Part shown: piece by piece, positions 30,776 to 33,695 of the stretch
Layout of the letters: the number at the start of each line of letters is the position of its first letter
Position numbering within the stretch: the first letter of the stretch is position 1
NCBI GenBank assembly: GCA_031291075.1
Contig: JARLJS010000110.1
Coordinates: 1 to 40,039 of the forward strand
DNA: 40,039 nucleotides
From: Nevskia sp.
GTDB lineage: Bacteria > Pseudomonadota > Gammaproteobacteria > Nevskiales > Nevskiaceae
Direction of reading: 5' to 3'
Notes under the pieces: model-generated
What the model was told of the DNA's origin: nothing
Database searches by the model: none
What the model saw: only the letters and a program-made list of their open reading frames with translations
Position numbers and translations under genes: made by a program

Positions 30776-31663
30776 TCATGTTACGACGTGGAAATCCACC
30801 TGCTGCGAACGTAGCCAGTCGCCTGCGTCGGCGCCGTACAGGATTGCGATGGTGGTCAGAGCGCCGGCCTCGCTGCAGCTCGCGCCGGCCACAGTCACGC
30901 TGCGCGGGGCCTGCGGCGGCGGCCAGCCGGTCCTGGGATCGATCACGTGGCCGTAGCGGCGGCCGCCGAGCGTGATGTAGCGGTGGTGGTCGCCGCTGGT
31001 GGCGACCGCGCCGCGCGTCAGCCGAATCAGCGGGGTGGCGGTCCGGTCCACGCCGCTGTCGATGCCGATCCTCCAGCAGCTGCCGTCGCTGCGCGCCCTG
31101 TTGGCGGCAAGATCGCCGCCCAGGTTCACCAGCGCGGGCCTGGACGTTGCCTGCGACAACAAGGCCAGCGCGCGGTCGACCGCGTACTCCTTGCCGACGC
31201 CGCCGAAGTCCAGTTCCATCCCCGGCAGCATGCGCAGCGCCGGCGCCTGCCAGACGACGCGGTGCCAGCCGATGTGGGGGAGAAGCGCCTCCACCGCCGC
31301 GGGGTCCGGGACAGTTGCGCCTTCCCTGAACGACCACACGCGCCGCAGGAGTCCGGCAGTCAGGTCAAAGCGTCCTTCGCTGCCGGCGTGCAGCTGGGCC
31401 GCGAACTCGATCAGTCCCGCGGTCTCCTCGTCGACCTCGATCGTCTGTCCGGCGGCGCTGTTGATGGCATCGACGATGTTGCCCGCCTGGTAGCGGCTCC
31501 ATTTCGCCTGGATGCGCCAGCATTCGCGCGCGGCGAGCAGCCCCAGTTCGGCCAACTCGTTCTCGTCCGCCCCGTCCACCAGGACCTCGCACGGCGACGC
31601 CATGGCCTGGAAACGGGCGGCGAGGCCGCCGTCGGCCAGGTGTTCGACGCGCACCGTCTGCAT
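30776..31663 (-). CDS. apbE: FAD:protein FMN transferase ApbE
   Basis: The 295-residue enzyme transfers FMN from FAD to a Thr/Ser of target proteins. Family motifs are visible: FQAMASPCEVLV at the start, QAKWSRYQAGNIVDAINSAAG, the flavin/metal site LDFGGVGKEYAVDRAL, and GHVIDPRTGWPP. Unlike most ApbE proteins it has no signal peptide or lipobox; the reading frame opens directly into the domain, and the start lies only 3 bp after the DUF3570 stop. The likely substrate is the DUF3570 protein encoded just before it, which carries a matching acceptor motif. Confidence 0.93.
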   Translation of the reverse strand: MQTVRVEHLADGGLAARFQAMASPCEVLVDGADENELAELGLLAARECWRIQAKWSRYQAGNIVDAINSAAGQTIEVDEETAGLIEFAAQLHAGSEGRFDLTAGLLRRVWSFREGATVPDPAAVEALLPHIGWHRVVWQAPALRMLPGMELDFGGVGKEYAVDRALALLSQATSRPALVNLGGDLAANRARSDGSCWRIGIDSGVDRTATPLIRLTRGAVATSGDHHRYITLGGRRYGHVIDPRTGWPPPQAPRSVTVAGASCSEAGALTTIAILYGADAGDWLRSQQVDFHVVT

Positions 31664-31666
31664 GGT

Positions 31667-32986
31667 TCAGCGGAAACCGAGGCTGAAGATCAGCCAGCCG
31701 GCGCTCAGCGACGGGGCCACGTCGTACCGGGCAAGTGCGTTGCCCGCGACCGGCGGCAGCCCCTCGACCTTGCCGAGCTGCCGGTAGTATTCCGCGCGCA
31801 CGCTCCAGTCGTGACCGGCCCAATGCCGGTCGCCGTACTCCAGCCCGCCGGTATACGCGGTGAAGGCGCCGAGGCGCTGGTCCGCGCTGGCGAAGCGCGT
31901 GCCGGCCACCTGGCCCTGGTCGAGGGCGGCGTGGAAGAAGTCTGCCGCGCTCTGGCGATAGCCGCGCAGGTGCGGTTCGAGGTAGCCACGTTCGCCGGCG
32001 ATGTAGGCGCGGTAACTCAACTCCACCGTGTGGGAGCGGATGCCCCAGGTGTCGATCATGTAGCGATAGGATGCGTCGAACACGTCCGTGCCCATCGCGC
32101 GTGCCTTGTAGTGGGTATACAGCGAATTCTTCAAGCGGCTGCCCGGGCGTGACTCGTAGACGTAGTACAGCGGCGCGGCAGTGGCGTCGACCACCGAGAG
32201 GATCTTGTAGGGGTCGTTCAGGTATCCGTTCGAATGGCTCAGCGAGTAGTTCACCTGGACCAGGGACCGCGGCGACACCAGCTGGGTCACGCCGACCACC
32301 ATGTCCTGCACCAGCTTGAGCTTGCTGCTGGGGCCGTTGGCGATCGAGCCGACCATCTGCGACAACGGCGTGTTGACCCCGCCGACCGGGCTGATGAAGT
32401 CGCTCGAGAAGTTCAGTCCGGCGCCGAGCGTGGTGTTGCCCTGGTTGAAGTCGCGCGACCAGTGCCCACCGACGCCGATCGACGTGTAGTCATCCTCGAC
32501 GGACAGGGCCGTGGACAGATCCATATGCTGCTTCGCGGCAGGGGCGAAGCTGTAGTCGATCTCCAGAGCCCCGCGCAGATTTTCGAAATTCGGGTCCTTC
32601 GGCAGCTCGTACGCCGCTGTCGTATAGGTGCTATTGACGCCGGACGAGGATGACGAGCCGGAGGAGCCGGACGTACTGTGCGGCTGGAAGAACGTCTGGG
32701 GCTTGGAATAAGGGGCGGCGCCGTTGGGCGTCGCACCGCTCAGGGCGTCGACCGTGACGGTGGCCGCGAGCGTGCGGCTTTCGTCCAGGTGCAGGCTGGC
32801 ATTCACCTTGGGCTCGAACACCTTCACCCGTCCCGCCCCTTCGGCGTACAGCAAGGTAGAGGTATCGAAGGTCCAGTCGCTGCCGTCGTCCGCGTGGGCC
32901 GTCGCCGCCGAGCTGGCGCCGAGCAGCGACAGCGCCGCTGCCGCGAACCTGTTGCGGCGTTGTGGTCCGTTTAGTTGCATCCGCAT
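31667..32986 (-). CDS. DUF3570 protein with a flavinylation motif
   Basis: The 439-residue exported protein has a signal peptide (cleaved near TAHADD) and a repetitive beta-strand pattern to the C-terminus, suggesting an outer membrane barrel. A Ser/Gly linker (residues ~106-115) interrupts the first part. Residues 80-86 read D-A-L-S-G-A-T, which fits the motif at which ApbE attaches FMN to Thr. The DUF3570 family is otherwise of unknown function. The start overlaps the DUF4266 gene; ATG at 32986 and at 32980 are both possible after GGAGG, the second having the better spacing. Confidence 0.88.
   Translation of the reverse strand: MRMQLNGPQRRNRFAAAALSLLGASSAATAHADDGSDWTFDTSTLLYAEGAGRVKVFEPKVNASLHLDESRTLAATVTVDALSGATPNGAAPYSKPQTFFQPHSTSGSSGSSSSSGVNSTYTTAAYELPKDPNFENLRGALEIDYSFAPAAKQHMDLSTALSVEDDYTSIGVGGHWSRDFNQGNTTLGAGLNFSSDFISPVGGVNTPLSQMVGSIANGPSSKLKLVQDMVVGVTQLVSPRSLVQVNYSLSHSNGYLNDPYKILSVVDATAAPLYYVYESRPGSRLKNSLYTHYKARAMGTDVFDASYRYMIDTWGIRSHTVELSYRAYIAGERGYLEPHLRGYRQSAADFFHAALDQGQVAGTRFASADQRLGAFTAYTGGLEYGDRHWAGHDWSVRAEYYRQLGKVEGLPPVAGNALARYDVAPSLSAGWLIFSLGFR
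32729..32749 (-). other. Codons for the D-A-L-S-G-A-T flavinylation motif
   Basis: These seven codons of the DUF3570 gene encode a sequence matching the D-x-x-S/T-G-A-T pattern recognised by ApbE in Nqr/Rnf subunits and FMN-binding proteins; the final Thr (residue 86) would carry FMN. It lies within an extracytoplasmic strand region. Confidence 0.6.
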
Positions 32987-33183
32987 CCGCCTCCGCCGAA
33001 GCCGCGGCCGCCGCTGCTGGCCTCCTTGCTGAAATAGATGTGGTCTTCCAGGCCTGCCTGCAGCGGGTTGGATGCCGGCTGCATGTCGGGCCGGGCCAGG
33101 ATGTCGTGCTGCCAGGGCTTCACCGCCACGCAGCCGGGAAGCACCGACAGCGCCGCGAGTACAGCGATCGAACGAAAGTTCAT
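32971..33183 (-). CDS. DUF4266 lipoprotein with Gly/Cys-rich tail
   Basis: This 70-residue lipoprotein has a short signal peptide with lipobox VLPGC (Cys18), then the DUF4266 core VKPWQHDILARPDMQPASNPLQAGLEDHIYFSKEASSGG. It ends in a glycine/cysteine tail (GFGGGGCGCN). Its start overlaps the thioredoxin gene stop (ATGA), and its end overlaps the DUF3570 start. As I know these families, DUF4266 and DUF3570 genes commonly travel together with apbE; the role is unknown. The two tail cysteines could bind a metal or be substrates of the thioredoxin. Confidence 0.9.
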   Translation of the reverse strand: MNFRSIAVLAALSVLPGCVAVKPWQHDILARPDMQPASNPLQAGLEDHIYFSKEASSGGRGFGGGGCGCN

Positions 33184-33695
33184 GGGATCAGGGCGCGAGC
33201 TGTGGGGGGTGTCGGAGAATCGACGATGTTGCGGATCACGGCTTCGTAGTCGGTGGCCTTGCTGCCAAAGAAGCCGCTGTGCTGGTGGATGACGCGGCCG
33301 TCCGCGCTGAGGATCACCGTGCTCGGCATGCCGTCGATGTGGTATTGCTCGGCGATGCTTCCGGCGGGGTCGTAGACCACCGCAAAGTCGGCCGGATGGC
33401 GGGTGAGGAACGCCTTCGCCGCCGTGGTGTCGGCGTCAACGTTCACCGCGACGATGGCCATGCGGTTGCCGTACCGCGTCTGCATCGCGTTCAGCCACGG
33501 AAACGATTCGGCGCAGGGTCCGCACCATGAGGCCCAGAAGTCCACGTAGACGACCTTGCCGGCGTAGGCCTGCAGCGGACCGGCCAGCGAAACATTGGCG
33601 GCGTGGGCGGATGCCGCCCCCAGGGCGAGAATGATGGAGAGCGCGGAGCCGATCCACGGCGGCGCGGTCCAGCGTTGCGGCAAGCGGTGGTTCAT
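33180..33695 (-). CDS. TlpA-like periplasmic thioredoxin
   Basis: The 171-residue protein has an N-terminal membrane/signal segment (IGSALSIILALGAASAHA) and a TlpA/ResA-type thioredoxin domain with active site C58-G-P-C61 (WASWCGPC), an AIVAVNVDAD strand and the cis-proline loop GMPSTVILS. It should reduce disulfides in the periplasm. A longer reading extends upstream to 34298 but is low-complexity and unlike protein, so the ATG at 33695 is used. No Shine-Dalgarno sequence is seen; a foldable leader lies just upstream. First gene of the DUF4266-DUF3570-apbE operon. Confidence 0.9.
   Translation of the reverse strand: MNHRLPQRWTAPPWIGSALSIILALGAASAHAANVSLAGPLQAYAGKVVYVDFWASWCGPCAESFPWLNAMQTRYGNRMAIVAVNVDADTTAAKAFLTRHPADFAVVYDPAGSIAEQYHIDGMPSTVILSADGRVIHQHSGFFGSKATDYEAVIRNIVDSPTPPTARALIP

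Follow-up and report, generated by a model that had tools for sequence, protein, structure and literature searches.

A predicted DUF3570 outer-membrane barrel with a putative flavinylation site and its ApbE without a recognisable signal peptide in Nevskia sp.

We analyzed a 40,039-nucleotide stretch of DNA from Nevskia sp. (GenBank assembly GCA_031291075.1, contig JARLJS010000110.1, positions 1 to 40,039 of the forward strand; the window), in which genes for ApbE, a DUF3570 protein, a DUF4266 lipoprotein and a thioredoxin-fold protein are all adjacent. The DUF3570 protein, a predicted outer-membrane barrel, very probably bears a covalent flavin, which makes the operon one of a known kind of system. 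Its partner ApbE, a flavin adenine dinucleotide (FAD):protein flavin mononucleotide (FMN) transferase, has no recognisable signal peptide and departs from most ApbEs at two conserved positions. We think it probable that the DUF3570 protein receives its flavin while still cytoplasmic, ahead of its passage through Sec, and that the barrel then takes part in a thiol/flavin redox chain. The wider proposal, which we put forward tentatively and with more doubt than belief, is that signal-less ApbEs whose active site has been remodelled (Gly for Asp, K-E-Y for K-G-Y) form a dedicated subfamily that loads exported outer-membrane barrels with flavin in the cytoplasm, so that FMN crosses the inner membrane on an unfolded Sec substrate. 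The features are as follows.

33180..33695, minus strand: TlpA/ResA-like thioredoxin-fold protein with CGPC and an N-terminal signal sequence (Redoxin PF08534, E 1.6e-20)
32971..33183, minus strand: DUF4266 small lipoprotein with C-terminus GGGGCGCN (PF14086, E 4.4e-22)
31667..32986, minus strand: DUF3570 protein, signal-like N-terminus and predicted 16-strand outer-membrane beta-barrel (PF12094, E 9.3e-100)
32729..32749, minus strand: D80-A-L-S-G-A-T86, predicted ApbE flavinylation site with T86 as predicted acceptor (motif definition and conservation)
30776..31663, minus strand: ApbE, no recognisable signal peptide (PF02424, E 4.7e-61)
31187..31189, minus strand: ApbE Glu159, in K-E-Y where most ApbEs have K-G-Y (alignment)
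30863..30865, minus strand: ApbE Gly267, where the active site otherwise has a conserved Asp (taken from the alignment to be E. coli D283)

The predicted flavinylation site and the DUF3570 barrel

A sequence-only reading of this DNA had noted D80-A-L-S-G-A-T86 in the DUF3570 protein and apbE 3 bp downstream, and both are as claimed, on the minus strand. The motif fits D-x-x-[ST]-G-A-[ST], the minimal seven-residue ApbE site (PMC12052999; papers given here by PMC number are cited for individual passages of their text). The pattern arose in 0.9% of 20,000 shuffles of the window DUF3570 protein and was carried by the DUF3570 frame only among the 206 stop-to-stop frames of at least 100 amino acids in the window. 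To judge its conservation we used 122 unique DUF3570 proteins, comprising the window protein, those of same-phylum genomes and those of 80 named loci (L112-L191), which were picked by similarity to the window protein from 429 relatives and therefore over-represent its class (class A, below); the incomplete protein of L006 lacks the motif columns, leaving 121 aligned sequences. Far from being unconserved, an outcome that would have told against the sequence-only reading, the acceptor position 86 was Ser or Thr in 121 of 121. Position 83 was Ser or Thr in 120, position 84 Gly in 114, position 85 Ala in 111, and position 80 Asp in 113 and Glu in the other 8. We therefore rejected a chance occurrence of the motif, given these near-invariant columns.

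The survey distinguished three classes of DUF3570. Class A, to which the window protein belongs, has a single site, D-x-[LV]-[ST]-G-[AS]-[ST], followed mostly by P/A-N/S-G. Class B has two sites, SGAS-PW and SGA[ST]-I, separated by ∼20 residues in most members, and includes a second DUF3570 of the window's own genome (contig C274) with both sites present. In class C, site 1 is often S-S-A-S or S-N-A-S. The window protein carries site 1 alone, the second place being absent or degenerate in its class A relatives; two of these (L003 and L002) have P-G-A-T where class B has S-G-A-[ST].

We asked, as the sequence-only reading had suggested, whether the site is kept only beside apbE, and the answer was divided. 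Neighborhoods were counted in the 84 DUF3570 loci with at least 2.5 kb on either side, and ApbE lay within 2.5 kb in 68 of them and was absent there in 16. The acceptor is always kept, and 10 of the 16 apbE-less loci retain [ST]GA[ST], so that copies away from apbE can have the motif too. The part that held concerns the Gly, which was lost only in copies without apbE nearby: the remaining 6 of the 16 have SSAS or SNAS, and no apbE-adjacent copy with a readable site had lost it. At one locus with shorter flanks (L063) the site reads TAAS and no apbE was seen.

The view that DUF3570 is a flavoprotein gains further from published work, together with the conserved motif and the stable neighborhood. 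Meheust et al. 2021 (PMC8238504) found that the DUF3570 protein of Chlorobium luteolum is flavinylated by its ApbE, as detected by in-gel fluorescence, that flavinylation was lost only once both serine sites were changed, and that the protein was mostly in the pellet of lysed cells. They also described the cluster of ApbE, DUF3570, thioredoxin and DUF4266, and counted DUF3570 in 227 of 285 clusters with DsbD and 316 clusters without DsbD. Flavinylation of DUF3570 beside ApbE is thus already published and not a discovery, and the window protein is a further member of this flavoprotein family. The window operon shares with these "DsbD systems" the four kinds of protein, adjacent genes, D-x-x-[ST]-G-A-[ST] and a CxC-ended DUF4266, but differs in having one [ST]GA[ST] site where two are reported, in lacking DsbD, which occurs in a subset of the published clusters, and in its thioredoxin, which matches Redoxin/Thioredoxin_8 and not PF13899. 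In a full-text literature search, DUF3570 and DUF4266 were named in PMC8238504 only, and a later survey of flavinylated structures (PMC11334425) does not contain the term DUF3570.

The sequence-only reading also allowed that DUF3570 might be an outer-membrane protein, and structure prediction bears this out. An AlphaFold2 model built from a 66-sequence alignment had 16 long strands, with a mean predicted local distance difference test of 88.3 and a predicted template modeling score of 0.85. The best Foldseek matches in the PDB were outer-membrane barrels (FadL, the PelBC complex, Cir, OmpG, PfeA and OprD), with template modeling scores by query length of 0.20-0.45 among the 50 matches listed; a sequence comparison with the PDB yielded just two matches, both at chance level (E 0.5 and 0.65). 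We conclude that the window DUF3570 is, by prediction, a 16-strand outer-membrane barrel. The turns on one face of the model span 2-5 residues, and several long loops lie on the opposite face. Long loops of outer-membrane barrels usually face outside, and the long-loop end of the model should therefore be the outer one. The site ends strand 3 (residues 72-87), just before the long loop 88-129, at this long-loop end, which presumably places the flavin at the outer end of the strand. As to an orientation of T86 toward the lumen, the alternation of residues holds up to residue 79 and is broken by the conserved Leu82.

The DUF3570 N-terminus is signal-like, with a moderate hydropathy (1.77, compared with a family median of 1.78 and 2.20 for the thioredoxin-like proteins of the same loci). 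We considered export by the Tat pathway and rejected it, since a twin-arginine-like pattern occurred in 1 of 121 N-termini. The signal-like region (window residues 14-25) is unusually conserved, as L-A-x-A-T-C-x-L-L-G, and 72 of the 122 aligned rows have Cys where the window protein has Leu19.

ApbE proteins linked to DUF3570

To assess export of ApbE, we took the highest 12-residue hydropathy before the conserved ApbE core, with a threshold of 1.8, as a proxy for a signal peptide. In the window ApbE this value is 0.51, and a signal peptide would not fit, since the core starts at about residue 18 and the frame opens one codon 5′ of the ATG. Counting unique genes found with a wide profile, the threshold was reached by 2 of 96 DUF3570-linked ApbEs (L119 and L134, neither of which looks like a signal peptide) and by 45 of 71 unlinked ApbEs, bearing in mind that hydropathy alone is a crude proxy. 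A cruder first count had given 2 of 113 and 22 of 31, with linked frames that were partly redundant (among them truncated copies of a single gene taken from overlapping loci) and a profile filter that dropped many unlinked ApbEs.

The unlinked ApbEs over the threshold were unevenly distributed, with 44 of 58 outside the window's genus and 1 of 13 inside it. Because this figure is low across the genus, we conclude from these sequences that signal-less ApbEs are characteristic both of the genus and of the partnership with DUF3570. Among all 23 readable ApbEs of the genus, one exceeded the threshold, and there (L253) the hydrophobic stretch is the start of the core. This search covered 7 of the 8 DUF3570-bearing genomes of the genus, the eighth (G009) contributing its linked copy L006 only; 5 further genomes of the genus and a partial match (G007 C364) were left out, and one ApbE (G007 C525) is cut at its C-terminus. 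The window's own genome (96.9% complete) has three ApbEs by PF02424, none over the threshold, and these adjoin the window DUF3570, the second, two-site DUF3570 and an FMN_bind protein. All three neighboring substrates appear exported, the FMN_bind protein with a clear signal by eye.

Signal-less unlinked ApbEs were not rare, and include six described below and a second short, apparently signal-less kind (L230-L233 and L011, G000 C69:101320-102361), whose core starts with ...PLLGT... and which directly follows an FMN_bind-like protein that is exported and carries the site I-S-G-A-T. These pairs indicate that DUF3570 is not the only exported substrate to have a signal-less ApbE next to it.

The linked ApbEs also share a residue swap. 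A Glu follows the Lys of K-G-Y, and Gly replaces the active-site Asp, in all 92 proteins readable at both places; of the other 4 among the 96, 3 have the Glu with the second place unread and 1 is unread at both. Among the 71 unlinked ApbEs, 62 have Gly and Asp at these places, 3 have Gly and Glu, and 6 have the same Glu and Gly as the linked proteins. One of these six (L218) comes from a genome with a second DUF3570 that lacks a neighboring apbE, and the other five come from genomes without DUF3570. None of the six is over the hydropathy threshold, which suggests that the swap and the missing signal go together. ApbE and Ftp proteins of E. coli, Vibrio cholerae, Listeria monocytogenes and Thermotoga maritima, relatives found in the PDB, share PF02424 and the active-site Ser and His with the window ApbE, whereas in the printed alignments they have the active-site Asp and A-K-G-[YF], A-A-G-Y or G-E-G-Y where the window protein has Gly and G-K-E-Y; the window protein also differs in having no recognisable signal.

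A review describes a conserved Asp-Ser-His triad in ApbE (PMC12052999), and in E. coli Ftp D283 binds metal 1 and E169 is a ligand of metal 2 (PMC4767422). By our reading of the alignment, the triad Asp corresponds to E. coli D283. The possibility that the swapped ApbEs have lost or changed their transferase activity, the motif then being conserved for something else, for instance the structure of the barrel, follows from the Gly found in place of this triad and metal-1 Asp throughout the readable linked ApbEs, an equivalence that comes from the alignment. We regard it as very unlikely. The other two triad members, Ser and His, persist in all 94 linked ApbEs that could be read there; the new Glu aligns one position after E169, which makes a moved metal ligand, and a metal held differently, plausible; the acceptor is invariant and the motif Gly is lost only where no apbE lies within 2.5 kb; and the C. 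luteolum pair, whichever residue type its ApbE may have, is active (PMC8238504).

The swapped ApbEs track DUF3570 in phylogeny and in genome content. In a quick tree (no bootstrap, with a long-branch warning and with 10 linked rows labeled 'x'), a branch with a Shimodaira-Hasegawa-like approximate likelihood ratio of 97 set apart 100 of the 143 rows, with the linked ApbEs and the six others with the swap on that side. Searching 348 same-phylum genomes with the window ApbE gave a gap in scores, from 169 bits and above to 118. Above the gap lay 21 genomes with this ApbE type, 16 of which had DUF3570 as well and 5 of which did not; of the others, 10 had DUF3570 only and 317 neither (Fisher p 6e-17, kinship ignored); the DUF3570 and ApbE searches were taken to cover the same 348 genomes, and all 26 DUF3570 genomes are in both. 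Of the 10 with DUF3570 only, 6 contain class C alone (G027, G035, G185, G308, G332 and G334), 3 have a diverged linked ApbE carrying K-E (G054, G118 and G228), and G021 showed no linked ApbE in the short stretch examined. In one genome without a DUF3570 match, a KEY-type ApbE (L267:1465-2646) adjoins a protein with CxxCH that resembles an exported barrel cytochrome of the outer membrane and has no Pfam match and no ApbE motif.

Probable place and time of flavinylation

A signal-less ApbE that serves an exported barrel is most simply explained by flavin attachment in the cytoplasm, ahead of export, and the same absence of a recognisable export signal sits poorly with the wholly extracytoplasmic flavin system proposed in the sequence-only reading. 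We infer the place and time of flavinylation, as well as the electron path and acceptor considered below. ApbE in the cytoplasm, the site of FAD synthesis, would transfer FMN to T86 of the unfolded DUF3570 precursor; the FMN-bearing chain would then pass through Sec and, with Bam, fold into a barrel of 16 strands, the third of which would hold the flavin at its outer end. Cytoplasmic loading fits the published co-expression result, where C. luteolum DUF3570 was flavinylated although it was mostly in the pellet (PMC8238504), and it fits the small recognition motif of ApbE (PMC12052999). A cytoplasmic ApbE without a signal peptide is known from Klebsiella pneumoniae, where it flavinylates a soluble cytoplasmic fumarate reductase (PMC12052999), in contrast to the exported barrel here. 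We did not find a signal-less, residue-swapped cytoplasmic ApbE for DUF3570 in print among open PMC papers, supplements excluded. Within the window's genus, where the 23 readable ApbEs are seemingly signal-less, such loading may be the sole mode.

An alternative is that flavinylation is periplasmic, either because the linked ApbE is exported in a way that we do not recognise or because another, exported ApbE acts on the barrel. ApbEs are typically secreted and membrane-anchored (PMC12052999), signal-bearing ApbEs are common among unlinked proteins outside the genus, and 16 of the 84 loci have no apbE within 2.5 kb. We nevertheless judge this alternative unlikely, because the window's nearly complete genome shows three ApbEs and none with an export signal by hydropathy, because the signal-less ApbE tracks DUF3570 in neighborhood, tree and genomes, and because the genome whose second DUF3570 lacks an apbE neighbor has an ApbE with the swapped residues elsewhere (L218).

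Several observations nonetheless weigh against cytoplasmic loading by a dedicated ApbE. We know of no case in which an FMN-bearing chain passes through Sec. Absence of a signal was judged by the crude proxy above and is not peculiar to linked ApbEs, as 26 of 71 unlinked ones also fell under the threshold (14 of 58 outside the genus, doubtful starts of the L277 type included, and 12 of 13 inside). Five genomes carry the ApbE type and no DUF3570, and loss of the active-site Asp could mean an altered activity. At 6 of 9 class C loci, the same strand encodes an ordinary ApbE at a distance of 6-18 kb upstream, with a hydrophobic N-terminus in 5 of these 6, and flavinylation may thus be periplasmic at these clusters. 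The same upstream genes led us to discard the idea, taken from 2.5-kb flanks, that class C has no ApbE at all.

If cytoplasmic loading is correct, an outer-membrane protein would be supplied with its covalent flavin before export, contrary to the usual periplasmic view, and there would be no need to export FAD. This would bear on the supply of FAD to periplasmic ApbE, a question that has been tied to the membrane anchoring of ApbE (PMC12052999). It would also single out ApbEs with a changed active site as a subfamily that can be put to the test.

The proposed electron path and neighboring genes

The four genes are tightly packed, with overlaps of 4 nt between the thioredoxin and DUF4266 genes and 16 nt between those for DUF4266 and DUF3570, and 3 nt between the DUF3570 stop codon and the apbE ATG. 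Profile matches were strong for both DUF3570 (334.8 bits against a cut-off of 25, covering residues 3-425 of 427) and ApbE (207.1 bits against 25.6). DUF4266 lay within 2.5 kb of DUF3570 in 84 of 84 full-flank loci and a thioredoxin-like gene in 80 of 84. Among 111 unique DUF4266 homologues, 110 end in C-G-C and 85 have a lipobox pattern; the conserved C-G-C and the Gly-rich stretch before it suggest that the protein ends in a flexible, thiol-bearing tail. The window thioredoxin matches Redoxin/Thioredoxin_8, all its ResA-type NCBIfam matches being under the cut-off and PF13899 absent from its profile matches. DsbD_TM had a single match in the window's genome, on contig C95, and none inside the operon.

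An electron-carrying function is inferred, as are the parts that TlpA and DUF4266 would play in it. Reducing equivalents, with the one DsbD found in the genome as their probable source, would pass to the TlpA-like thioredoxin, then to the DUF4266 CGC tail and the flavin, and from the flavin to an acceptor outside the cell, perhaps ferric iron. This chain follows that of Meheust et al. (PMC8238504). More speculatively, the flavin may lie at the barrel's outer mouth within reach of the Gly-rich CGC tail of DUF4266, giving a haem-free electron path across the outer membrane. Mtr-type conduits involve outer-membrane cytochromes; they share with this proposal electron transport through a barrel to the outside, but use haems where the window system would use flavin and thiols, conduction by it being only proposed.

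The barrel might instead be an outer-membrane enzyme or importer that uses the flavin for its own substrate, with TlpA and DUF4266 serving reduction or maturation. Across 66 DUF3570 sequences D258, P259, K261, R280, P281, D369 and R371 are invariant and S367 nearly so, and the AlphaFold2 model places them in long loops, as in a binding site. Moreover, the four-gene operon has no membrane electron-transfer protein, and the window DUF3570 has no cysteine for TlpA to act on. We consider this reading rather unlikely: a CGC-ended DUF4266 at every full-flank locus fits a redox relay better than folding help for a cysteine-less protein, and DUF3570 occurs in most of the published DsbD clusters (PMC8238504).

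A PAP2 gene (30729-30097) was considered as a conserved operon member and rejected, its matches in the surveyed loci being the window copies alone. Plasmids searched with the window DUF3570 protein gave no match. In a metagenome-assembled genome of Zhongshania (L155:4261-8531), the trio of thioredoxin, DUF4266 and DUF3570 is tandemly duplicated upstream of one apbE. At L237 and L240 (also L234, L235, L238 and L239), a class C DUF3570-DUF4266-thioredoxin set lies within a larger cluster, which at L237 includes SH3 and OMP_b-brl proteins as well as one with a match to the middle domain of hydrazine synthase alpha.

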